A DNA stretch of 33,827 bases, taken from assembly GCA_017938485.1 (NCBI GenBank), contig JAGBBM010000085.1, positions 1 through 33,827 of the forward strand, in the 5' to 3' direction. The stretch is from Lachnospiraceae bacterium. Its GTDB lineage: Bacteria > Bacillota > Clostridia > Lachnospirales > Lachnospiraceae. Below the pieces are notes generated by a model. That model made no database searches. It worked only from the letters and a program-made list of their open reading frames with translations, and was not told the DNA's origin. Below are positions 2,109-24,238 of the stretch, piece after piece (position 1 is the stretch's first letter; each line of letters opens with the position of its first letter). A program made the position numbers and the translations under genes.

Positions 2109-3686
2109 ATGGCACTAAAACATGTAATGATTAATGACATAATTTCAGAGCATAACGCGAGGATGCATAACCTTAAAAAGTATTACCCATTTTTCGTGTT
2201 AAGTGAAACTACATTTTCCCAGTACAAAGAAGGAAGATATAGTTTTCTTGACATGGGTTATATCACTATGGCATCTTTGCGCTTTTTTATTAACGAGAAT
2301 AATTTCCATGAGAAAGATATTACCTATGAAGAGTATGAGTCCTTTTTGTCGGAATTACTGAAGAGAGATTTTGAACTAGATGAGTCAGCTGAGGAGGAAA
2401 AACAGCTAGTTCTTTATATATTTGACAAGCTTAAGAATGAGGGTAAGGCCTTTGAATTTAAGTTTTTTGACCCAGAGAAGAAGGGTAGCAGAGTTGCTAG
2501 AGTTAAGTTTATTGAAAGCAGAATTGAAAATGGTCAGGTGCTTTATACAATCACTGCTGAGGGCATAGAGTTTTATCTTGATACCAAGGAGATTAAGGAT
2601 GAGAGCAAGATTAATGTATCTCAGTTGCTTCTTGAAAAGATGATTAGCTCTAATAACTTTAAGGGTGGTATAGATGTAGTTAAGAGAATTAATTCTCAGG
2701 TTACGCAACTTATATTGGAAAAAGAACAGGTTTTAAAGCTTCTTAGCATAGATGTTTTTGAGGGTGCTAAGGCCTATGAGCAGTATATGGAGACCACAGC
2801 AAAGTGGTTTTCTGAAGAGCAGAAATTATTTGCAAAAAATAAGGCTCTTGTGGATAAGGCAATTGAGAAGGCCACCTTTGAAAAAAGTGAGGAGGGTAAG
2901 GCGGTTTCTCTTCGTTCAAAGGCTTTAGAGGAGATAAGTACTCTTGAGACAGAGCTTAAGAAAACAATATATAATCACAGTCAGCTTATTGCTGAAACTA
3001 TGGAGCTTCAGCAGCTTTCTGATAAGATTATAGCTCGTGCCAAGCTTAGAAAATTACGTCCTGTGTTTGACTTTAGACAGAGCCTCGTTGGACTTATGGA
3101 AAAGGATAGACCAGAGCTTATGGCAAGTGTGGTTATGCCACTGTTTGCTCCTCGTATAGATAAGACATTTTCTATGAAATCCATAGACAATATGCTCACT
3201 TTAAAAGCTGATGATAAGCTCAAGGGAGAGAAGGTTGAAAAGACAGTACTGGATATGGACTTTATGTACGAGGACGAGCTTCTTGATAAGTCCATAGGAG
3301 CTAACTTTGGAAGACTGTTCTATGAGCTTTTAGACCAGTTGAATAAGTGGAACAAGGTTAGCTTAAAAGAGTTAAATGGTATCTTAGAGATTAAGTTTGG
3401 TGAAGAAATCTTTGCCAACAGAGATTACTATGCATTTTTAGTGCATCTTGCAGGTAAGAGAGAGTACATCATGAAAAAAATGCTTGAAAAGCAAGAAACT
3501 CTCTTAGAAGAGATGGTAGTTGCTAATCTTTCGGAGGATGAAAAAGAAAGATTTGAAACTATGAGCTTTACCATAGAGTTTGGAGACGAAGAGGTTTTAC
3601 TTCAGTCTTATATTGAACCGGAAGATAAGGAAAAAGAAGAATTTAGAGTTACGGATATGATATTTGAAAGGAGGATGGGGAACTGA
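2109..3686 (+). CDS. jetA: JetA-like kleisin subunit of a MukBEF/Wadjet-type condensin
   Basis: A 525-residue protein resembling the Wadjet JetA family (MukF-like kleisin). In that family it bridges the heads of the SMC-like JetC dimer and docks JetB. Visible parts: an N-terminal helical/winged-helix-like region (residues 1-150), a helical middle with charged helices (200-330), a linker rich in D, E and K (about 360-400), and a C-terminal winged-helix-like segment (about 410-470, FYELLDQLNKWNKVSLKELN). No catalytic motif is expected or seen. It starts with ATG after AGAGGG. Its TGA overlaps the next ATG by one base (TGATG), so it is translationally coupled to jetB. Assignment rests on order, size and general sequence character; I recall similar proteins annotated as JetA family in Lachnospiraceae. 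The exact Wadjet subtype is uncertain. Confidence 0.72.
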   Translation: MALKHVMINDIISEHNARMHNLKKYYPFFVLSETTFSQYKEGRYSFLDMGYITMASLRFFINENNFHEKDITYEEYESFLSELLKRDFELDESAEEEKQLVLYIFDKLKNEGKAFEFKFFDPEKKGSRVARVKFIESRIENGQVLYTITAEGIEFYLDTKEIKDESKINVSQLLLEKMISSNNFKGGIDVVKRINSQVTQLILEKEQVLKLLSIDVFEGAKAYEQYMETTAKWFSEEQKLFAKNKALVDKAIEKATFEKSEEGKAVSLRSKALEEISTLETELKKTIYNHSQLIAETMELQQLSDKIIARAKLRKLRPVFDFRQSLVGLMEKDRPELMASVVMPLFAPRIDKTFSMKSIDNMLTLKADDKLKGEKVEKTVLDMDFMYEDELLDKSIGANFGRLFYELLDQLNKWNKVSLKELNGILEIKFGEEIFANRDYYAFLVHLAGKREYIMKKMLEKQETLLEEMVVANLSEDEKERFETMSFTIEFGDEEVLLQSYIEPEDKEKEEFRVTDMIFERRMGN

Positions 3687-4399
3687 TGGAAGGAAGAAGT
3701 TTAGATAAAGCATTAGATATATATTCAGCGCTTATTACAGGAAAAGATGTTTCCCGTTCTAACCCTGATACAAGAGATTTATACGAGGAATATTATTCTA
3801 ATTCGGCGGTTTATGATATCGTCACAAAGCTTATGAAGAAGCTTAATCTCAACATATATGAGTACAACGATTCTATTTATTTGACTGCCGGCGAAGGCAA
3901 TCGTGTATTTGGATACACAAACGATGATATGAAGCGTCAGCTTGGTCTTAGACTTAATAAGGAGCTTTATATGGTTTACTTTATCATGTATAATGCCCTT
4001 CTTTTGTTCTATCAGGATTCCGCTTCCTATCAGGTAAAAGAATATGTGAAATTAGAGGATATTATGGAGCAGGTAAATACATACCTTTCAGCTATTACCT
4101 CTGATTTGTCAGTTTATTCTATGGATGAGCTGGAGGAGGAAAGCTTTAAAACTATAGCTCTTCTCTGGGATGAGCTTCCAGTTGTAACCTCTGATGACAA
4201 GGAAAAGAACAGAGCATCAAGAGCGTCAAAGACAGGTTACGTTAAGCTTACATTTAATTTCCTTGCAGAGCAAAAATTATTTGTTTCAGTTGAGGACAGA
4301 TACTATCCTACAGATAGATTTAAAGCTATTGTGGAGAACTACTTTGAAGAATATAAGGGTAGAATTTACAAGGCTTTAGGAGGTGAAGCTGATGCCTAG
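3686..4399 (+). CDS. jetB: JetB-like (MukE-like) accessory subunit
   Basis: A 237-residue acidic protein between the kleisin-like and SMC-like genes. This is the position and size of JetB/MukE/MksE, which form winged-helix dimers that bind the kleisin and DNA. Helix-rich segments (SALITGKDVSR, VYDIVTKLMKKLNLNIYEY) are followed by a strand-type wing (SIYLTAGEGN). A second possible winged helix lies near the C-terminus (TGYVKLTFNFLAEQKLFVS then RYYPTDRFKAIVENYF). The ATG overlaps the jetA stop by one base, with AAAGGAGG upstream inside jetA. Its own TAG overlaps the ATG of the SMC gene (ATGCCTAG). No enzymatic motif is visible. The name comes from context and fold-like pattern, not from a diagnostic motif. 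Confidence 0.65.
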   Translation: MEGRSLDKALDIYSALITGKDVSRSNPDTRDLYEEYYSNSAVYDIVTKLMKKLNLNIYEYNDSIYLTAGEGNRVFGYTNDDMKRQLGLRLNKELYMVYFIMYNALLLFYQDSASYQVKEYVKLEDIMEQVNTYLSAITSDLSVYSMDELEEESFKTIALLWDELPVVTSDDKEKNRASRASKTGYVKLTFNFLAEQKLFVSVEDRYYPTDRFKAIVENYFEEYKGRIYKALGGEADA

Positions 4400-7300
4400 T
4401 ATAAACAGAATTAGAGTTAATAATGTAAAATATAATTTCGGCACTCAGTTTTACGATGACTTTACTATGAGAATGTACGGAAAAAACACTCTCTATGACC
4501 TTGCTAACGGTGGTGGTAAGAGTGTGCTTATGCTTCTTCTTATGCAGAATATGATTCCAAACTGTACTTTGGATGAGAAGCAGCCTATAGAGAAGCTTTT
4601 TAGAACCGGTAACAATAATACTACAATTCATTCTCTTGTGGAATGGAAGCTGGATGAGGCAGATTCAAAGGAGGGTTACAGATATGTAACCACTGGTTTT
4701 TGTGCAAGGAAAGCCAAGGATGCAGAGGGAGAGGCCGAAGCAAACAAGGATGTGGCATCTGTAGAATATTTTAATTATTGCATTTTCTACAGAGAATTTA
4801 ATAAAAATGATATAGTCAATCTTCCTCTTGCTAAGGACGGGGAAAGAATCACTTTCCAAGGACTTAGAAGTTACCTTAAAGACTTAGAGCATAGAGATAT
4901 GAGTCTTTCGGTAAAGGTTTTTGACAGAAAAGGCGAATATCAAAGATTCATAAGTGGATTTGGTATTCACGAGAGTCAGTGGGAGATTATTCGTGGCATC
5001 AACAAGACTGAGGGCCATGTAAGAACTTATTTTGAGAATAACTATAAGACTACCAGAAAGGTAGTTGAGGATCTTCTTATTGAGGAGATTATTGAAAAAG
5101 CATTTATGGTAAAGACAGAGCGTGATGATGAGGGCTCTGATTCTATGGCTAAGATGCTTATGGATATTAAGGAGCAGCTTACTGTACTTGCAAAGAAGAA
5201 AAAGGATATCTCTGCTTATGACCATCAGATAGAGCTTATTAGTGTACTCTCTGATAAGGTTGCTTCCTTTATGGATTTATATGAGGAACAGACTAAGCTT
5301 TCCAAACTTATTGCAGATATATGCGTTACAGGAGAGTATTTTGCCAGTCGAGATGAGGAAAAGATGGCTGAGCTTAAAAATGCTAGCGACGAAAAACGTT
5401 TGGAGAAAAATAAGCAAAGGGAGCGTATAGAGTGTCTCAAGGTCTCAAGAGATAAGAGACAGTTAGAGGAGTTAAAGGCTAAGGAAGAGCTTCTTCTTGA
5501 TAAGCTTTCAAAAGAGAAGGCAAGACTATTGGAACTTGAGAAGGATCTTAATTTCAAAGAAAGCGTTAACGAATATCTGGACTACATAGAAGACAGGAAA
5601 AAGTATCAGCAGTATGACACCATGATAAAGACAATGATGTCAGACTCCAGATTTGATGAGAGGCTTCTTTATACCTATGTATATAACATCAAAAACAGAA
5701 TGGATGTTGTGATGACCAATATAAGAGGTCAGATAGAAGAGATAGAAACAAAACTTAGTGAGGCAAGACACAAGAAAGAATACAACGAAAAGCTTTTACA
5801 GGAAGCAAGGGTTTCTCATGCAGTAGCTGTAAATGCCAAGAAGATGGCCGATGAGGAGATAGTTACATTAAGTGAGAAGTTATCTAAGATTAGGATGTCT
5901 ATGAATGACATTAAATTTACCAAGGTGGAAGAACAGTTGTCTGAGCTTGCCACTGTGTGTGAGAAGGCTAAAGATAAGCTTACTGAGTGTGAGAGTATAA
6001 TTGCAGATAACAAGAATCTCATAAATGAGGAAAGCCTTAATTTGTCTATTTTGACTGCAAAGGAATCAGACAACAACAAGCTTATAAGTAGTCTTATGGA
6101 AAGGGAAATGGAGTTTAAGGATGTTTCCGAAAAGCTTAGTAGTATTAAGACTGTTTATGGTGCGGAACAGATAGAAGAGTTAATTAAGTTAATCTCTGAT
6201 AGAATTACGAAGGCTGTTATTGAAAGCGGTGAGTTAAAGAAAAATATTGATGTGTCTAACAAGAAGATTGAACGCCTTAAAGAGGGCAGAATCATAGATG
6301 TGTCAAAGGGTGTATCAAAGGTTATCGAGTATATTGAAACCAGACACGGACTTACTGCTATGAGTGGTATGGATTATCTTTCTGCGTTTGATAGGGCAAG
6401 ACAGCTTGAGATATTGGAGGTTAATCCAGAGCTTCCTTATGGAGTTGTTGTAAAGGATTACGATACTGTTAAGGATGACCCTAATATATTGAGCGTAGAT
6501 ACAAGTGATGTGTCTGTTAACATTTTTGATATGGCTAGCATCGATGAGAAGGCACTTTATTATGGTGAAAATGCATTTTCTATTCATTCAGCTCCAGATT
6601 ATCTTACCGCAGAAGATACTATGGAAAAGCTTATAGAAAAAGAGCTTAACAATTGCGAAGAATATAAGCAACAGCTAGAACTTAAGGAAGAGATGCTGAC
6701 TGCCTACAAAGAGGATCAGGAGTTTGTTTTAAGAATAGCTGATGGAGAACTTATTAATGCAGGTGAGCGCTTAGCTAAGGCAAAGGAAACTGCTGAAAAG
6801 CTTGCTAAGGATATTGAGGAATGTAAAACAAAGCTTAAGAATTATAAGGGTAATATTGCCAATTGGCAGGAGATTCGTACTGAGACAGAAGAAAAGTATG
6901 AAAAGGCAGTTCAGGATACCAATAAGCTTTATACAATCAGTGAGCTTTCTTCTGTAATTGGTAAGCAAGAGGATGTATCAAAAGATAGTGCCGTGCAGAT
7001 TGAAAGACTTGAAGAAAGAATCAGAGAGCTTACTAACGAGTTTAATTATGGCGAAACTAATTTTGCAGAGGAAGAGTCAAGGTTAAAATCCTTGGAGAAA
7101 AAGCTTTATGATATGTCTCATGAATGGGACAACAATTATAAGTCCTATTATAATCCAGATGAGGATTTTGAAGTTTTAACCTGTGATGAAGACGAGCTTA
7201 AAGCAAGATTTAGAGCTATGCTTTTGGCAGGAAGTGAGGATGCTAAGGCCATAGAAGACAAGCGAACTCTTATGGATACTATAAGAGTTTCTATGGATAG

Positions 7301-8795
7301 AACCATCAAGAATATCGAAAAACGTGGTGTGAGTGTTGAAAAATTAGAAGACTTGTACTACAGAAATCTTCTTTACATTGCAGATGAAGAGCTTATTTCA
7401 TCCTGCCAAAAATCTATAGATGAGGTTAAGAGTCAGATAGATTCTTATGAAAATATGCGAAAGAAGCAGACCTCTGCTATAGATAGATTATCCGGTAGTA
7501 TTGACTATGCTATTCGTAACATTGAGGATGCCTTTGGTGCATATGTAGATGTGGAGGCAAGTCTTTCGGAGATAGTATCTAATCTTGAAAATGGTGAAGC
7601 CTTGCTTAAGCGTCTTGGTGAGGAGGCAGCTTCCTGTGAGGAAGAGTACAAGAAATATGTAAAACAACAGAGCTATATGATTGACTTATATAAGGACGTA
7701 AAGAGAATTGTTACGACTAATGATATAAGTCTTGAGGGCGCTAATCCAATCATGGAGGATAAGGATAAGTTAAGAGAGCTGTTCGAGACAAATCTTATTA
7801 GATATGACAAGAGCAATAAGAGTCTGGATAAGGCAAAGAATGAATTGCTTAAGTTCAAGGGTAATACTGCTTCAACTTTAGACCAGATGGAGGTTTATGA
7901 GCTTGCCAATACCATAAGAGAGGATGTAGTTATTCCAAATGATTACACTGAGGCAAATCTTCTTATGGATAATCTAAAGACTATAGTTGATTATATTCGT
8001 CTTGAGAAAGAGAGAATTGCAAAGAGTCTTGTGGATATGGAAACTATTAAGGCGAACTTTGAGGAGCAGTGTCTCCAAAGATGTCTTGATGTAAAAACTG
8101 AGCTTGATAAGCTTCCTAAGTTGTCTAGAATTATGGCTGACGGAGAGGCTATTCAGATGGTTGGACTTACTGTTCCTTACGTGAAGGATGAGTTCCTTAA
8201 ACAGCGTATGTCCGATTACATAGATAGGATAGTTGCTCAGGCAGATGATTACGATAGCGATAAGGAACGAATTAAGTTTATTCGAAATAGTCTTGCACTT
8301 AAGAAACTGTTTGGTGTTATAGTTACAGATATGAATGGAATTAAACTCAATCTTTATAAGAGGGAGCGTATAAAGGAACAGAGCCGTTATCTTAGATACG
8401 AGGAGGCAGTTGGAAGTACAGGACAGTCTCAGGGTATATATATACAGTTTTTGGTTTCTATCATCAATTATATTTCAGGCATGTATCAGACTGGAAATGA
8501 AGATATACGAACAAAGACTATATTTATAGATAATCCATTTGGTGCAGCAAAAGATGTGTATATATGGGAACCTATATTTGCACTTCTTAAAGCAAACAAT
8601 GTACAGCTTATAGTACCAGCAAGAGGAGCTACACCAGCCATTACAGGTAGATTTGACGTGAACTATATCTTAGGTCAGCAGATGTCTTCTGGTAAGCAGC
8701 TTACAGTTGTAACTGACTTCACTAGCAAGGTAGACCAGGAGGAGTTAGAATATCAGGATTTAGAGTACGAGCAAGTAAGCTTCGACTTTATATAA
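4392..8795 (+). CDS. jetC: JetC-like SMC/MukB-type coiled-coil ATPase
   Basis: A 1467-residue SMC-type ATPase, larger than a typical JetC. The ATG at 4392 has AGGAGGTG at 4378-4385; an in-frame GTG at 4383 overlaps this site and is less likely. Domains in order: N-terminal head with a P-loop (LANGGGKS, K43) lacking the usual first Gly; long coiled coil (about 230-620); a globular hinge-like middle (about 630-745, including PELPYGVVVKDYD); returning coiled coil (about 745-1290); C-terminal head with a signature-like GSTGQSQ (1341-1347) and Walker B IFIDNPFG (D1380). Canonical ATPases have Glu after the Walker B Asp, whereas here it is Asn1381. By family knowledge it should dimerise, bind ATP and extrude DNA loops with JetA/JetB. 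The C-terminus ends QVSFDFI. No JetD nuclease gene lies next to it. Confidence 0.8.
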   Translation: MPSINRIRVNNVKYNFGTQFYDDFTMRMYGKNTLYDLANGGGKSVLMLLLMQNMIPNCTLDEKQPIEKLFRTGNNNTTIHSLVEWKLDEADSKEGYRYVTTGFCARKAKDAEGEAEANKDVASVEYFNYCIFYREFNKNDIVNLPLAKDGERITFQGLRSYLKDLEHRDMSLSVKVFDRKGEYQRFISGFGIHESQWEIIRGINKTEGHVRTYFENNYKTTRKVVEDLLIEEIIEKAFMVKTERDDEGSDSMAKMLMDIKEQLTVLAKKKKDISAYDHQIELISVLSDKVASFMDLYEEQTKLSKLIADICVTGEYFASRDEEKMAELKNASDEKRLEKNKQRERIECLKVSRDKRQLEELKAKEELLLDKLSKEKARLLELEKDLNFKESVNEYLDYIEDRKKYQQYDTMIKTMMSDSRFDERLLYTYVYNIKNRMDVVMTNIRGQIEEIETKLSEARHKKEYNEKLLQEARVSHAVAVNAKKMADEEIVTLSEKLSKIRMSMNDIKFTKVEEQLSELATVCEKAKDKLTECESIIADNKNLINEESLNLSILTAKESDNNKLISSLMEREMEFKDVSEKLSSIKTVYGAEQIEELIKLISDRITKAVIESGELKKNIDVSNKKIERLKEGRIIDVSKGVSKVIEYIETRHGLTAMSGMDYLSAFDRARQLEILEVNPELPYGVVVKDYDTVKDDPNILSVDTSDVSVNIFDMASIDEKALYYGENAFSIHSAPDYLTAEDTMEKLIEKELNNCEEYKQQLELKEEMLTAYKEDQEFVLRIADGELINAGERLAKAKETAEKLAKDIEECKTKLKNYKGNIANWQEIRTETEEKYEKAVQDTNKLYTISELSSVIGKQEDVSKDSAVQIERLEERIRELTNEFNYGETNFAEEESRLKSLEKKLYDMSHEWDNNYKSYYNPDEDFEVLTCDEDELKARFRAMLLAGSEDAKAIEDKRTLMDTIRVSMDRTIKNIEKRGVSVEKLEDLYYRNLLYIADEELISSCQKSIDEVKSQIDSYENMRKKQTSAIDRLSGSIDYAIRNIEDAFGAYVDVEASLSEIVSNLENGEALLKRLGEEAASCEEEYKKYVKQQSYMIDLYKDVKRIVTTNDISLEGANPIMEDKDKLRELFETNLIRYDKSNKSLDKAKNELLKFKGNTASTLDQMEVYELANTIREDVVIPNDYTEANLLMDNLKTIVDYIRLEKERIAKSLVDMETIKANFEEQCLQRCLDVKTELDKLPKLSRIMADGEAIQMVGLTVPYVKDEFLKQRMSDYIDRIVAQADDYDSDKERIKFIRNSLALKKLFGVIVTDMNGIKLNLYKRERIKEQSRYLRYEEAVGSTGQSQGIYIQFLVSIINYISGMYQTGNEDIRTKTIFIDNPFGAAKDVYIWEPIFALLKANNVQLIVPARGATPAITGRFDVNYILGQQMSSGKQLTVVTDFTSKVDQEELEYQDLEYEQVSFDFI

Positions 8796-8808
8796 GAGAG
8801 GTGGAATT

Positions 8809-9690
8809 ATGCATTATAAAGAGGTTAAAGCAATTCTATCCCCTCAAAATGGAATGAATTTGTATAGGGGTTGTACCCATGGATGTATATATTGTGATTC
8901 TAGAAGTAAATGCTATCGAATGAATCACGACTTTGAGGACGTGGAGATAAAGCTTAAGGCGGATGAACTGTTAGAACATACCTTAAAGCGTAAACGTACA
9001 AAGAGTATGATATCCACAGGCTCTATGACTGATCCATACATTCCTTTAGAGGAAGAATTAAAGCTTACAAGAAGATGTATCAATCAGATAGAGAGATTTG
9101 ATTTTGGACTTGTTATTCAGACTAAGTCAAATCTTATCTTAAGGGATATTGATATATTAGAAAAAATTAATAAAAAGACAAAATGTGTAGTTGCCACTAC
9201 TCTCACAACCTACGATGAGGAACTCTGTAAGGTTATCGAACCAAATGTAAGCACTACAAAGGAAAGATTTGAGATGCTTATGGCGATGAAGGAAAGAGGA
9301 ATTCCAACTATAGTTTGGCTATCTCCATTTCTTCCCTTTATCAATGATACAGAGGAAAATCTTAGAGGTCTTATGGATTACTGCATCAAGGCAGGAGTAT
9401 ATGGTATAATCAATTTCGGTATTGGACTTACTCTTCGAGAGGGAAACAGAGAATATTTTTATGAGCAGTTAGATAGAAAATTCCCAGGCCTAAAAGAAAA
9501 GTACATAGAGACCTATGGAAATGCATATGAGGTTGTAAGCTCAAATAATGATTACCTTATGCAGATTTTTAAAGAACTATGTGAAGAACATGGTATCCAA
9601 TATGACAGAGAAGAATTATTTAGGTATATGAGGGAGTATAAGAATAAGACTCTAGGAACCCAGATGTCCTTGTTTGATTTTTTTGAGTAG
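8809..9690 (+). CDS. SPL-family radical SAM protein with C-terminal clamp-binding-like motif
   Basis: A 293-residue member of the spore-photoproduct-lyase-like radical SAM family. The cluster motif is C22-THG-C26-IY-C29 (CxxxCxxC), which binds the 4Fe-4S cluster that cleaves S-adenosylmethionine. It is followed by the TGSMTDPYIPLE and VIQTKSNLILRD segments typical of this family. Canonical members reverse UV photoproducts in DNA, but many relatives have unknown substrates, so the reaction is not fixed by sequence. The last residues read QMSLFDFFE; QMSLF (285-289) closely matches the bacterial beta-sliding-clamp binding pentapeptide (QL[S/D]LF). The gene starts 13 bases after jetC, with AGAGGTGG before it and no terminator between, so it should be the fourth gene of the operon, where jetD is expected. 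It appears intact. Confidence 0.85.
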   Translation: MHYKEVKAILSPQNGMNLYRGCTHGCIYCDSRSKCYRMNHDFEDVEIKLKADELLEHTLKRKRTKSMISTGSMTDPYIPLEEELKLTRRCINQIERFDFGLVIQTKSNLILRDIDILEKINKKTKCVVATTLTTYDEELCKVIEPNVSTTKERFEMLMAMKERGIPTIVWLSPFLPFINDTEENLRGLMDYCIKAGVYGIINFGIGLTLREGNREYFYEQLDRKFPGLKEKYIETYGNAYEVVSSNNDYLMQIFKELCEEHGIQYDREELFRYMREYKNKTLGTQMSLFDFFE

Positions 9691-21315: not shown

Positions 21316-21377
21316 GATGCAAAAATGATGCTTTTATGTTTTATGATAGTTTGTAAGATATGAAAGGAGGCATTTTT

Positions 21378-22766
21378 ATGAAGAAAAAATTAGTGATTAT
21401 GGGATTTTTGATAGTGTCATTAACATTATCTGGTTGTGACAACAAAGACAAGGGTTCAGATATAAAGGAGAAAGTTGAAGAGGTAGAAAATACTCAGGTT
21501 GAGGAGGAAGTAACGGAGGAGGCTTTACCGGAGACTGTGGAATATACCATATCCAATGAAAAGGGTGATTCCAAGATAAAAGTATCTGCCACTGTTGAGG
21601 CAGAAACCTTAAACGGACTTGCCGTTTTAAATGTTAAACCAAAGGAATTTACAGGAGAGTATGTAGAAAATATCGCAAAGAAATTTTTTGACAATGGTGA
21701 GTATGAAGTGTATAAGTCTTTATTTGCCTGTAACCAAGAAGAATTAGAGGAACATAAGGTATATTATCAGCAGTTGATGGATGAGAATGAGGGAGTGGAT
21801 TTCTATACGTTGTTTTACCATGCATCAGGTATAGATACCAGAGTGCCACCATCAAGTCAGATTGTAGCCATAGAGATGTATCAGGAAGGTTATGAGGATT
21901 TGTCTGACTTATATGAGACAGATGGTATATTGTATTCTATGACGTATGAATATTACACCGCAACAAGTGTACCTATAAGAGGAGATTATGGTGGTGAACC
22001 TTGGACTATGGGAGCCGTATCATTGCAAGGAAATAATTATTGCAATTCTGAGGTGAGGGCTATCAATATTCAACCTGCATACAGCAAGACTTGTATATTG
22101 GATTATGTAGGCTTAGATGATATGAATAGTAGTTTATATGGAGGAGCTAATAGACTTGATATAGAAATGGCAAAAGAAGAGGCAAATGAAATTGTAGCAA
22201 AACTTGGCTTTGAGGATATGGAAGTACTACATACAGTTCAAGCTTGTGTGGAAAGTTCGGAAAATTCTATAGGGGTATTGGATGGATATTGCTTTATATA
22301 TGGAAAGGATATGGGGGAGCTTGGCGCAAAATATTGGAACGGCGGATTAACTGTAATAGGAGAATTGGGGATAGATGAAGGGGCACCCCAGCCCTATGTG
22401 TATGTGACAGTTACAAGTAGTGGAATTGAGAATATATCAATTGGTATGGAATATGAGGTGATAGAAGAATTATCAGACAATACAGACATTTTGTCCTTTG
22501 AACAAGTTGATGCAATTGCCCAAAAACATTTTCAGGAATTGGTAAATGAACATAAGTGTAGTCAGGATATTTCTTCTATAGAACTTGGATATGTGTATGT
22601 GCGTTATGACACTGAAAATTATGCAGTGGTACCTGCTTGGATTTACTATGAGGGACAAGATGGTTATGATGGGAAAACATATGCTTTTAGAGCTTTTAAC
22701 GCCATAGATGGAAGTGTGATAGAAACATATACAAATTATGGTCACAATAATGTGGAAGGATTATAA
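21378..22766 (+). CDS. Secreted lipoprotein, paralogue 1
   Basis: A 462-residue lipoprotein. AAGGAGG lies nine bases before the ATG at 21378, which is preferred over the ATG at 21360. The signal peptide is MKKKLVIMGFLIVSLTLSGC, with a lipobox LSGC, followed by an acidic low-complexity linker. The mature part shares blocks with the next gene: DYVGLDD..GGAN, a GFEDMEVLHT segment, MDGYCFI, YVYVTVTSSGIENI and a C-terminal PAWIYYEG...NAIDGSVI. The last block resembles PepSY/YycI-type strands (inference). It is probably the first gene of the operon that ends with the ABC exporter at 31911. Function unknown; a substrate-binding or envelope-sensing partner of the exporter is plausible. Confidence 0.88.
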   Translation: MKKKLVIMGFLIVSLTLSGCDNKDKGSDIKEKVEEVENTQVEEEVTEEALPETVEYTISNEKGDSKIKVSATVEAETLNGLAVLNVKPKEFTGEYVENIAKKFFDNGEYEVYKSLFACNQEELEEHKVYYQQLMDENEGVDFYTLFYHASGIDTRVPPSSQIVAIEMYQEGYEDLSDLYETDGILYSMTYEYYTATSVPIRGDYGGEPWTMGAVSLQGNNYCNSEVRAINIQPAYSKTCILDYVGLDDMNSSLYGGANRLDIEMAKEEANEIVAKLGFEDMEVLHTVQACVESSENSIGVLDGYCFIYGKDMGELGAKYWNGGLTVIGELGIDEGAPQPYVYVTVTSSGIENISIGMEYEVIEELSDNTDILSFEQVDAIAQKHFQELVNEHKCSQDISSIELGYVYVRYDTENYAVVPAWIYYEGQDGYDGKTYAFRAFNAIDGSVIETYTNYGHNNVEGL

Positions 22767-22816
22767 AACAGTTTATTTTTTTCTTTGGATAGTATACTAT
22801 GAAAGAGGGTAATTTT

Positions 22817-24238
22817 ATGAAGAAAGTTACATATATATTGCTTGTGACAAGTTTGATGCTTTTCCTTGCCGGGTGTAAAAAAGAACAAGCAACAGATATA
22901 AAAGAACAGGTGGATAATATTGATGCAAGTGAGGAAGAAGTAGAAAAAATAGAGGTTCCTGAACATGTAAAATATGAGGTTACAGGAAATGAAACTTCAA
23001 ACCATCTTACTGTAGATGCGGATATAATCCTACCAGAAAGTAACAATTTGCCGGTTTATTCTATGGAGGCCTTAGAGCTTTCTGATGAGTTTATAAAAGG
23101 GTATGCAGATAAATTATTTGATAATGGCGAATACAGGATAATTAAGCCATATGAGATATGTACTCTTGAAGAGCTTGAAGAGGAGATACAATACTGTGAT
23201 GATAAAATTGTAGAGTATGGAATTGATTGGGAGAATATGTACGAATATTCTATAAGCCATATGACTCCCACTGCTATGTGGATATCAAGCGTTATGTATG
23301 AGCAAAGCGAGATGACAGAGTGTATTGATATAGCTAAGAATAATGAGTTATATATTTATGAAGATGGGCAGGTTATATATTGGAACGAGGCAAATGGCGG
23401 AGGGAAATTTGGACAGGGAAAACTAATTGGAACTGTTGATGGTGAAGACTGGCATATGGGATACTATTATAGGGATGCCACAAGCGATAATCCTTTTTCC
23501 TCCTTTCTTGTTAGTATGACTCCTGTAGTAAAAAAAGAAGGGTACATCATGGATTATGTAGGCATGGACCCAACCAATGATTCTATAAATGGGGGAGCCA
23601 ATATATTAGATGTAGATAAGGCAGAAACAGATGCAAGAGTATTCCTCTCCCGAATTGGATTTGATGATATGGAAGTAATCGGGACTTTACAGGTTGTAAA
23701 ATCACTGAATCCTACAGATGTATATAGTTATGAGCCTAAGATGGATGGTTACTGTTTTATTATGACACCTAGTTACAAAGATGCAAGTCCTTTATACTGG
23801 GTTAATAGGACGGCACAGTCAAATATGGTTACTGTGGCCGGAGAAGAAAAGGGATATGAACAGTTTTATGTTTATATAACGGTAACAAGTGAGGGTGTTC
23901 ACCAAGTTGCATTTAATCAGCCATATAATATAAAAGAAGAATTATCAAGTGATACTACGCTCCTTGATTTTGACACTATAGATGATATTGCCCAGGAGTA
24001 TATGATAGGAGTTTTAGATAGTGACAATTATATTGGAGATGTAAAAAGGATAGAACTTAGCTATGCAACAGTGGGATATGATGATGGCTCCATTGCCATG
24101 GTGCCAGTTTGGTTTTACTATGCATCTTACCAGGATATAAATGGAGAGGCGGTTCCGTATTTTGGCATAAATGCCATAGATGGAAGCTTGATTTTCTGCC
24201 TCAATGTATTTAAAAGTGGTCCAACTTGGATTTATTAA
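22817..24238 (+). CDS. Secreted lipoprotein, paralogue 2
   Basis: A 473-residue paralogue of the preceding gene. The ATG at 22817 follows AGAGGG and is preferred over the ATG at 22799. The signal peptide ends in the lipobox LAGC (MKKVTYILLVTSLMLFLAGC), then an acidic linker. Shared blocks include YIMDYVGMDPTNDSINGGANILD, GFDDMEVIGT, MDGYCFIM, FYVYITVTSEGV and PVWFYYASYQ...GINAIDGSLI. Identity outside these blocks is low, so the duplication is old. It lies 50 bases after paralogue 1 and 14 bases before the first fusion adaptor, which supports one transcription unit. Confidence 0.88.
   Translation: MKKVTYILLVTSLMLFLAGCKKEQATDIKEQVDNIDASEEEVEKIEVPEHVKYEVTGNETSNHLTVDADIILPESNNLPVYSMEALELSDEFIKGYADKLFDNGEYRIIKPYEICTLEELEEEIQYCDDKIVEYGIDWENMYEYSISHMTPTAMWISSVMYEQSEMTECIDIAKNNELYIYEDGQVIYWNEANGGGKFGQGKLIGTVDGEDWHMGYYYRDATSDNPFSSFLVSMTPVVKKEGYIMDYVGMDPTNDSINGGANILDVDKAETDARVFLSRIGFDDMEVIGTLQVVKSLNPTDVYSYEPKMDGYCFIMTPSYKDASPLYWVNRTAQSNMVTVAGEEKGYEQFYVYITVTSEGVHQVAFNQPYNIKEELSSDTTLLDFDTIDDIAQEYMIGVLDSDNYIGDVKRIELSYATVGYDDGSIAMVPVWFYYASYQDINGEAVPYFGINAIDGSLIFCLNVFKSGPTWIY

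Follow-up and report, generated by a model that had tools for sequence, protein, structure and literature searches.

What does the motor of a Wadjet system do in a genome that carries no Wadjet nuclease? The question is raised by a stretch of 33,827 nucleotides from a Lachnospiraceae bacterium (assembly GCA_017938485.1, contig JAGBBM010000085.1; the whole stretch is called here the window), in which four open reading frames (ORFs) follow one another head to tail on the + strand, at 2109–3686, 3686–4399, 4383–8795 and 8809–9690 according to an ORF check. The first three are jetA, jetB and jetC of the Wadjet type III kind, the fourth encodes a radical S-adenosylmethionine (radical SAM) protein, and the gene of the Toprim nuclease JetD is absent. 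The genome is a 2.43-Mb metagenome-assembled genome (MAG), 87.6% complete, of which the window is one whole contig; most of the genomes compared are also MAGs. From the comparison of this locus with its relatives we consider it fairly probable that JetABC is a Wadjet type III motor that persisted after losing JetD, as a second condensin that is resident and has no nuclease; the JetD-free jetABC is probably used for housekeeping rather than for defence.

The identity of the three subunits is clear. The jetA gene (2109–3686, 525 aa) encodes a kleisin-like subunit of the JetA3 type (PADLOC PDLC00560, 713 bits), jetB (3686–4399, 237 aa) a MukE/KITE-like subunit, JetB3 (PDLC00571, 352 bits; Pfam PF19539, DUF6063, 8.5e-49), and jetC (4383–8795) an ATPase like those of structural maintenance of chromosomes (SMC) complexes, JetC3 (PDLC00581, 1807 bits, matching from residue 4); the start of jetC is more likely the ATG at 4392, behind the sequence AGGAGGT, than position 4383. 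The ATPase motifs of JetC are intact: the Walker A (NGGGKS, 4506–4523), the ABC signature region (STGQSQG, 8415–8435) and the Walker B (IFIDNPFG, 8520–8543), all located by motif reading, are identical to those of the JetD-bearing relatives L065 and L118. A preliminary description of this DNA had recognised three condensin-like genes in Wadjet order, which these matches bear out; as to the family, they belong to type III, and the Pfam models of MukB, MukE and MukF found no match.

Two observations on the type III families are recorded here. Of the type III profiles, PDLC00560, PDLC00571 and PDLC00581 match the JetD-free proteins of Lachnospiraceae by far the best, and may therefore derive largely from the JetD-free group; PDLC00560 also matches the JetA of the JetD-bearing genome G039 (648 bits). 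The Walker B of type III JetC reads DNPFG or DNPFA in JetD-bearing and JetD-free loci alike, among the rows that could be matched by pattern (several could not); SMC ATPases usually carry a catalytic glutamate at the position where this motif has asparagine.

The absence of JetD has to be judged against its usual place. Outside the genus of the window 41 type III loci were fetched (L065, L115–L154), and in the 24 of them that carry JetD3, as found with an iterated JetD3 profile, jetD is always directly upstream of jetA; both JetDs given to PADLOC were labelled JetD3. Since jetD normally lies upstream of jetA, the radical SAM gene downstream of jetC does not stand in its place, and for the same reason the absence of JetD was tested on both sides of the operon and genome-wide. 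In the window genome (87.6% complete) Pfam JetD_C gave no match at E up to 1, and a profile made from 20 type III JetDs gave none at E up to 0.001, so that a JetD elsewhere in this assembly was rejected, as it had been for the window. A remnant of JetD beside jetABC was also considered and rejected: among six-frame fragments of 90 JetD-free stretches, the window included, the best match reached 13.5 bits (E 0.046, in L151), whereas five JetD-bearing controls gave 264–424 bits.

The same condition extends to a whole lineage of the family. The JetA profile found 50 of 397 sampled Lachnospiraceae genomes, from 40 of 334 genera, and none of the 50 loci of this JetA clade (all inspected, 12 earlier and 38 newly fetched) contains JetD3, so that the expected consistent absence of JetD from homologous operons was confirmed; 48 of them show 1.2 kb or more of the sequence before jetA, and of the two others G027 is negative genome-wide and G569 (L243) is unseen upstream. 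In the JetC trees, which were built on the two ATPase ends of the protein only, the JetD-free loci group with two JetD-bearing ones, from G039 and G341. A single JetD-free clade is not rejected (approximately unbiased test, p-AU 0.57, in a later tree with a thinned set of 35 rows), and one early loss of JetD, close to the root of a lineage of Lachnospiraceae, would be compatible with these results. Over all of its rows the first JetC tree, which leaves out L034, L075 and L079, requires at least five changes in JetD presence.

More distant type III loci showed some further arrangements. JetD is missing also from loci L127 and L147–L151; the latter hold a second, distant jetABC set without JetD at the locus (families f2 and f22), with the same chromosomal neighbours in G071 and G158. 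In the JetD-bearing locus L146 (3546–5753, genome G114) JetA and JetB are fused in one ORF of 735 aa, and the JetB labels were limited by length because the iterative JetB profile had picked up JetA through this fused ORF.

The distribution and inheritance of jetABC bear on whether it is resident. JetA is present in 36 of the 37 genomes of the window genus, always as a single match (E up to 1e-5). The exception, G030, is a 64%-complete MAG that also lacks the radical SAM gene. The order as a whole differs: there JetB3 (PF19539) was found in 52 of 392 genomes, from 32 of 173 genera. A second genus, g55, also has jetABC close to fixation, with JetA in 18 of its 22 genomes (12 of the 13 of good quality); fixation was measured in genera g1 and g55, and the negatives of the family survey are incompletely listed. 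In seven close pairs the ratio of nonsynonymous to synonymous substitution (dN/dS) is 0–0.10 across JetA, JetB, JetC and the radical SAM gene, and 0.019–0.065 for the last taken alone; the operon is under strong purifying selection. Across 16 genomes protein distances track those of the chromosomal marker ScpB (p=0.0002; Mantel r 0.79 for JetA, 0.68 for JetB, 0.80 for JetC and 0.63 for the radical SAM protein), and ScpB is encoded far from jetABC, about 520 kb away in G006, which is a single contig, and otherwise on another contig; the operon is therefore co-inherited with the chromosome, unlike the patchy JetB3 across the order. JetA had no match in plasmids, phages or viral contigs, and carriage by a plasmid or phage was rejected, one plasmid showing weak similarity to JetC (identity 26%, coverage 21%). 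The earlier suggestion that the operon is resident rather than mobile thus holds. ScpB is kept in 19 of 20 genomes, none having been found in G034, and a replacement of Smc-ScpAB by jetABC was rejected, in a search that covered ScpB.

An alternative is that JetABC still defends the cell against plasmids or phages, either by working with a nuclease provided in trans or by leaving invading circles uncut and silencing or trapping them. The subunits remain clear members of JetA3, JetB3 and JetC3, presence across the family is patchy, and Pfam JetD_C matches a protein elsewhere in four of the 37 genus genomes (G012, G025, G029 and G036), all of which would suit a defence role. The JetD3 profile is strong in one of the 37 only, G012 (295 bits), where the protein belongs to a separate second jetD-A-B-C operon (L261) with a divergent JetA, standing beside the resident jetABC; its jetD is cut by the contig end, and its JetA lies outside the genus JetA count. 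The JetD_C proteins of the other three genomes reach 21–30 bits to the JetD3 profile, in their C-terminal part, and are taken for other JetD kinds. Against defence, the remaining 33 of the 37 genomes have no JetD_C at E up to 0.01, and near-fixation together with co-inheritance with a chromosomal marker is unlike the sporadic JetB3 of the order. We regard a continued defence function as unlikely.

The chromosomal homes of the operon are stable. In the clade of the window jetABC sits between the genes for fructose-bisphosphate aldolase and malic enzyme. Elsewhere, in 15 genera and 21 of the 50 loci, recR is found upstream of jetA, after ybaB and, where visible, dnaX (the dnaX-ybaB-recR labels were confirmed by Pfam in one set); in g55 this holds for 18 of 18 JetA-bearing genomes. 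All 24 loci measured have recR in the same direction as jetA; no more than 150 bp separate the two genes in 18 of these, and other ORFs lie in between in L115, L224 and L241. On the second JetC tree, with unlabelled rows set aside, the linkage has one origin (98 in the Shimodaira-Hasegawa-like approximate likelihood ratio test, SH-aLRT), and six rows without recR fall inside the recR group, which implies that the linkage was lost or moved later. Where 23 loci were fetched from genomes with no JetABC match, recR is directly followed in five by a gene like those with tetratricopeptide repeats (TPR), so that jetABC is absent there from a gap that it fills elsewhere. Among the titles listed from the open-licence literature in PubMed Central (PMC) there was none on the recR-jetABC linkage, which is weak evidence.

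A large protein behind jetC was observed in many loci (L116, 10297–13386, and its relatives), with a TPR-like start, an acidic middle and an AAA-like end by eye. The TPR-like protein was considered as a dedicated partner of JetABC and rejected: 45 of the 46 genomes searched have a member of its family, whether or not they carry JetABC, and its gene directly follows recR in the five loci mentioned above from genomes with no JetABC match.

There remains the fourth gene, which the preliminary description named as present instead of jetD. It was correctly placed there 13 bp behind jetC and assigned to the radical SAM proteins (8809–9690, + strand, 293 aa; Pfam Radical_SAM PF04055, 4.6e-14), with the motif CxxxCxxC (CTHGCIYC, 8872–8895). 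The further label of a spore photoproduct lyase relative stood as regards the superfamily and is loose as regards the lyase: the best NCBIfam models are rSAM_PA0069 (NF033668) and rSAM_Rv2578c (NF038135), at about 147 bits, and the lyase model TIGR04070 gave no match to the window protein up to E 10 (the HMMER filters drop most weak matches); it did match a single homologue (E 6e-4) in an alignment of 14. The protein is of the PA0069/Rv2578c kind; its score is under the thresholds of the two models, 360 and 430 bits, and by the 360 bits of NF033668 it falls outside the PA0069 family. Solved lyases and condensins were considered as sequence matches of the radical SAM or JetA profile and rejected, since only coiled-coil or chance matches appeared; against the PDB sequences the sole match of the radical SAM profile at E up to 1 was a chance one.

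Within the genus the linkage of this gene to the operon is tight. The gene is present in 36 of 37 genomes and adjoins jetC, on the same strand, in all 31 stretches that show both, at a distance of 9–143 bp (9–30 bp in 28 of the 31 loci); with G012, G017, G018 and G026, where the linkage is also seen, it holds in 35 of 35 assessable genomes, the jetC of G002 lying beyond the contig end. Beyond the genus the picture is different. What follows jetC can be seen in 47 of the 50 JetD-free loci (all but L123, L246 and L253). The radical SAM gene is there in five (G000, G027, G475, G549 and G575; four genera) and missing from 42, which makes it a clade-specific addition and not a general stand-in for JetD. 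The linkage has one origin on the second JetC tree, again with unlabelled rows set aside (100 SH-aLRT), and the jetC-linked radical SAM proteins form one group (95 SH-aLRT, in a tree with long branches for L258 and L240). A search of 24 other genomes of the family found orthologues at 56–63% identity in six and at 41–42% in three. None of the six adjoins jetABC; three come from genomes with jetABC on another contig and three from genomes without it.

Two features of the linked copies stand out; the counts of linked copies include G002. The motif CxxxCxxC is intact in 37 of 39 linked copies where it is visible (36 in one count, and G017, read separately). The two others are open frames of 292 and 293 aa: L262, of G018, which begins just behind the jetC stop, has lost all three iron-sulfur (Fe-S) cysteines, and L258, of G575, the first two. 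Both are diverged, with dN of 0.33–0.71 to their relatives and dS near or past saturation. The second feature is a C-terminal tail (MREYKNKT..., 9628–9687 in the window), found by alignment of the homologues. Its signature Y-x-N-[KN] is carried by 39 of the 39 linked rows whose C-terminus can be seen and by none of four unlinked rows counted; by eye it is also lacking from further unlinked rows of an alignment that leaves out L161 and L162, and G033 holds a linked copy as well as an unlinked paralogue without the tail. In G017 (L314, 3444–3715) the reading frame of the radical SAM gene is broken close to its beginning, perhaps by an assembly error, the motif being readable in one frame.

These data bear on the proposal of the preliminary description, that JetABC scans the chromosome for DNA lesions or modified bases and brings the radical SAM enzyme to them. 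The short, co-directional spacing, the linkage in every assessable genome of the genus, the motif conserved in most linked copies and the low dN/dS of the gene would agree with it. It is opposed by the 42 JetD-free loci that lack the gene, by orthologues that exist unlinked and without jetABC, by locus L237 (G502), which has jetABC in the aldolase-malic enzyme setting without the radical SAM gene, and by the lack of any DNA-repair model among the NCBIfam matches of the window protein; the loss of two or three Fe-S cysteines in two linked copies argues against an obligatory lesion chemistry. We hold lesion scanning to be very improbable.

The gene could instead be a passenger that settled behind jetC once and was kept by descent, which would be compatible with JetABC as a condensin. 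The single origin of the linkage, the separate orthologues elsewhere in the family and the absence of the gene from L237 speak for such a history. On the other side, the close co-directional spacing is kept across the genus while the genes between the radical SAM gene and the malic enzyme gene vary, the tail distinguishes linked from unlinked rows and, in G033, the linked copy from its paralogue, and linked copies outlast the loss of their cysteines as open frames. A passenger is possible, although we would not expect it. Cysteine-less linked copies with an open frame, together with a tail confined to linked copies, hint at a structural role. An accessory confined to one clade is the most fitting description of the protein, which may be an enzyme, a subunit or a passenger.

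A broader proposal would unite both chromosomal homes: after the loss of JetD, the effector slot of JetABC may have been refilled by lineage, with a radical SAM subunit in the window clade and RecR in the sister clade. The radical SAM protein would bind JetABC through its C-terminal tail, in some species without need of the Fe-S cluster, and RecR, a Toprim protein by Pfam that is encoded upstream of jetA like the JetD of type III, would tie the motor to gap repair. Taken as a whole, this proposal seems to us decidedly unlikely.

Our preferred reading, that of a resident second condensin, can be put as a series of steps. Close to the root of a lineage of Lachnospiraceae, a Wadjet type III motor would have lost its Toprim nuclease, JetD, and JetABC would have been retained as a nuclease-free SMC complex similar to MukBEF or MksBEF. 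JetC dimers would hydrolyse ATP, JetA and JetB would close the ring, and the complex would extrude or tether loops of chromosomal DNA in replication, repair or segregation without cutting them; the ATPase motifs, the loss of JetD, the location and the inheritance of the operon point to such loop extrusion and to a chromosomal function. The radical SAM gene would have been added later in one sub-clade, perhaps as an accessory subunit, sometimes without an Fe-S cluster.

Several points weigh against this reading. The presence of jetABC across the family is patchy (the 50 genomes and 40 genera given above). The second JetC tree places three JetD-free rows outside the G039/G341 pair, and a second loss or a regain of JetD is needed to account for them. 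JetD_C proteins in four of the 37 genus genomes leave room for a nuclease encoded elsewhere or for plasmid control without JetD, and no lost JetD-docking motif was found in JetB when its alignment was inspected by eye. None of the proteins matched the Pfam models of the Muk subunits, and among JetA, JetB and JetC only JetB matched Pfam at all, with PF19539. The resident condensin was judged by ScpB, and the condensin function of JetABC is itself deduced from JetD loss, location and inheritance.

With respect to known systems, the locus resembles Wadjet type III (JetABCD) in its families and in the order A-B-C, its nearest JetD-bearing relatives being those of G039 and G341, and differs from it by the lack of JetD and by a jetABC that in the window genus is near-fixed and co-inherited rather than sporadic. 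It is like MksBEF and MukBEF in having a three-part kleisin/KITE/SMC complex without a nuclease, here by gene content, whereas its proteins are of other sequence families, of type III lineage, and are encoded beside recR or the radical SAM gene. The radical SAM protein resembles PA0069 and Rv2578c by its roughly 147 bits to both models and by the CxxxCxxC motif, and is set apart by scores below the cut-offs, by its linkage to jetC and by its own tail; with spore photoproduct lyase it shares the superfamily and the motif, and the lyase model fails to match it. Loss of JetD has been proposed, in a review (PMC10586767), as the origin of MksBEF of P. aeruginosa, and exaptation of JetABC as a second condensin, as the best reading of the present locus, would parallel that proposed origin. 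Among the titles listed from the open-licence PMC literature, preprints being outside this search, there was none on a JetD-free type III JetABC or on a radical SAM partner of Wadjet.

Around the operon, promoter- and terminator-like sites were no more or less numerous than in shuffled sequence. Further along the window, at 21360–24238, two neighbouring ORFs appear by eye to encode paralogous lipoproteins, ahead of an efflux-like gene set.

If the preferred reading is true, JetABC of these bacteria would add a well-sampled example to the SMC complexes that passed from defence to residence, and close relatives with and without JetD would allow the proposed transition from Wadjet to MksBEF to be tested. 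For the role of the add-on protein, the radical SAM homologues that have lost their cysteines provide a clean starting point for genetics. For the gut Lachnospiraceae, surveys that count JetA, JetB and JetC alone may report plasmid defence where the nuclease is absent.

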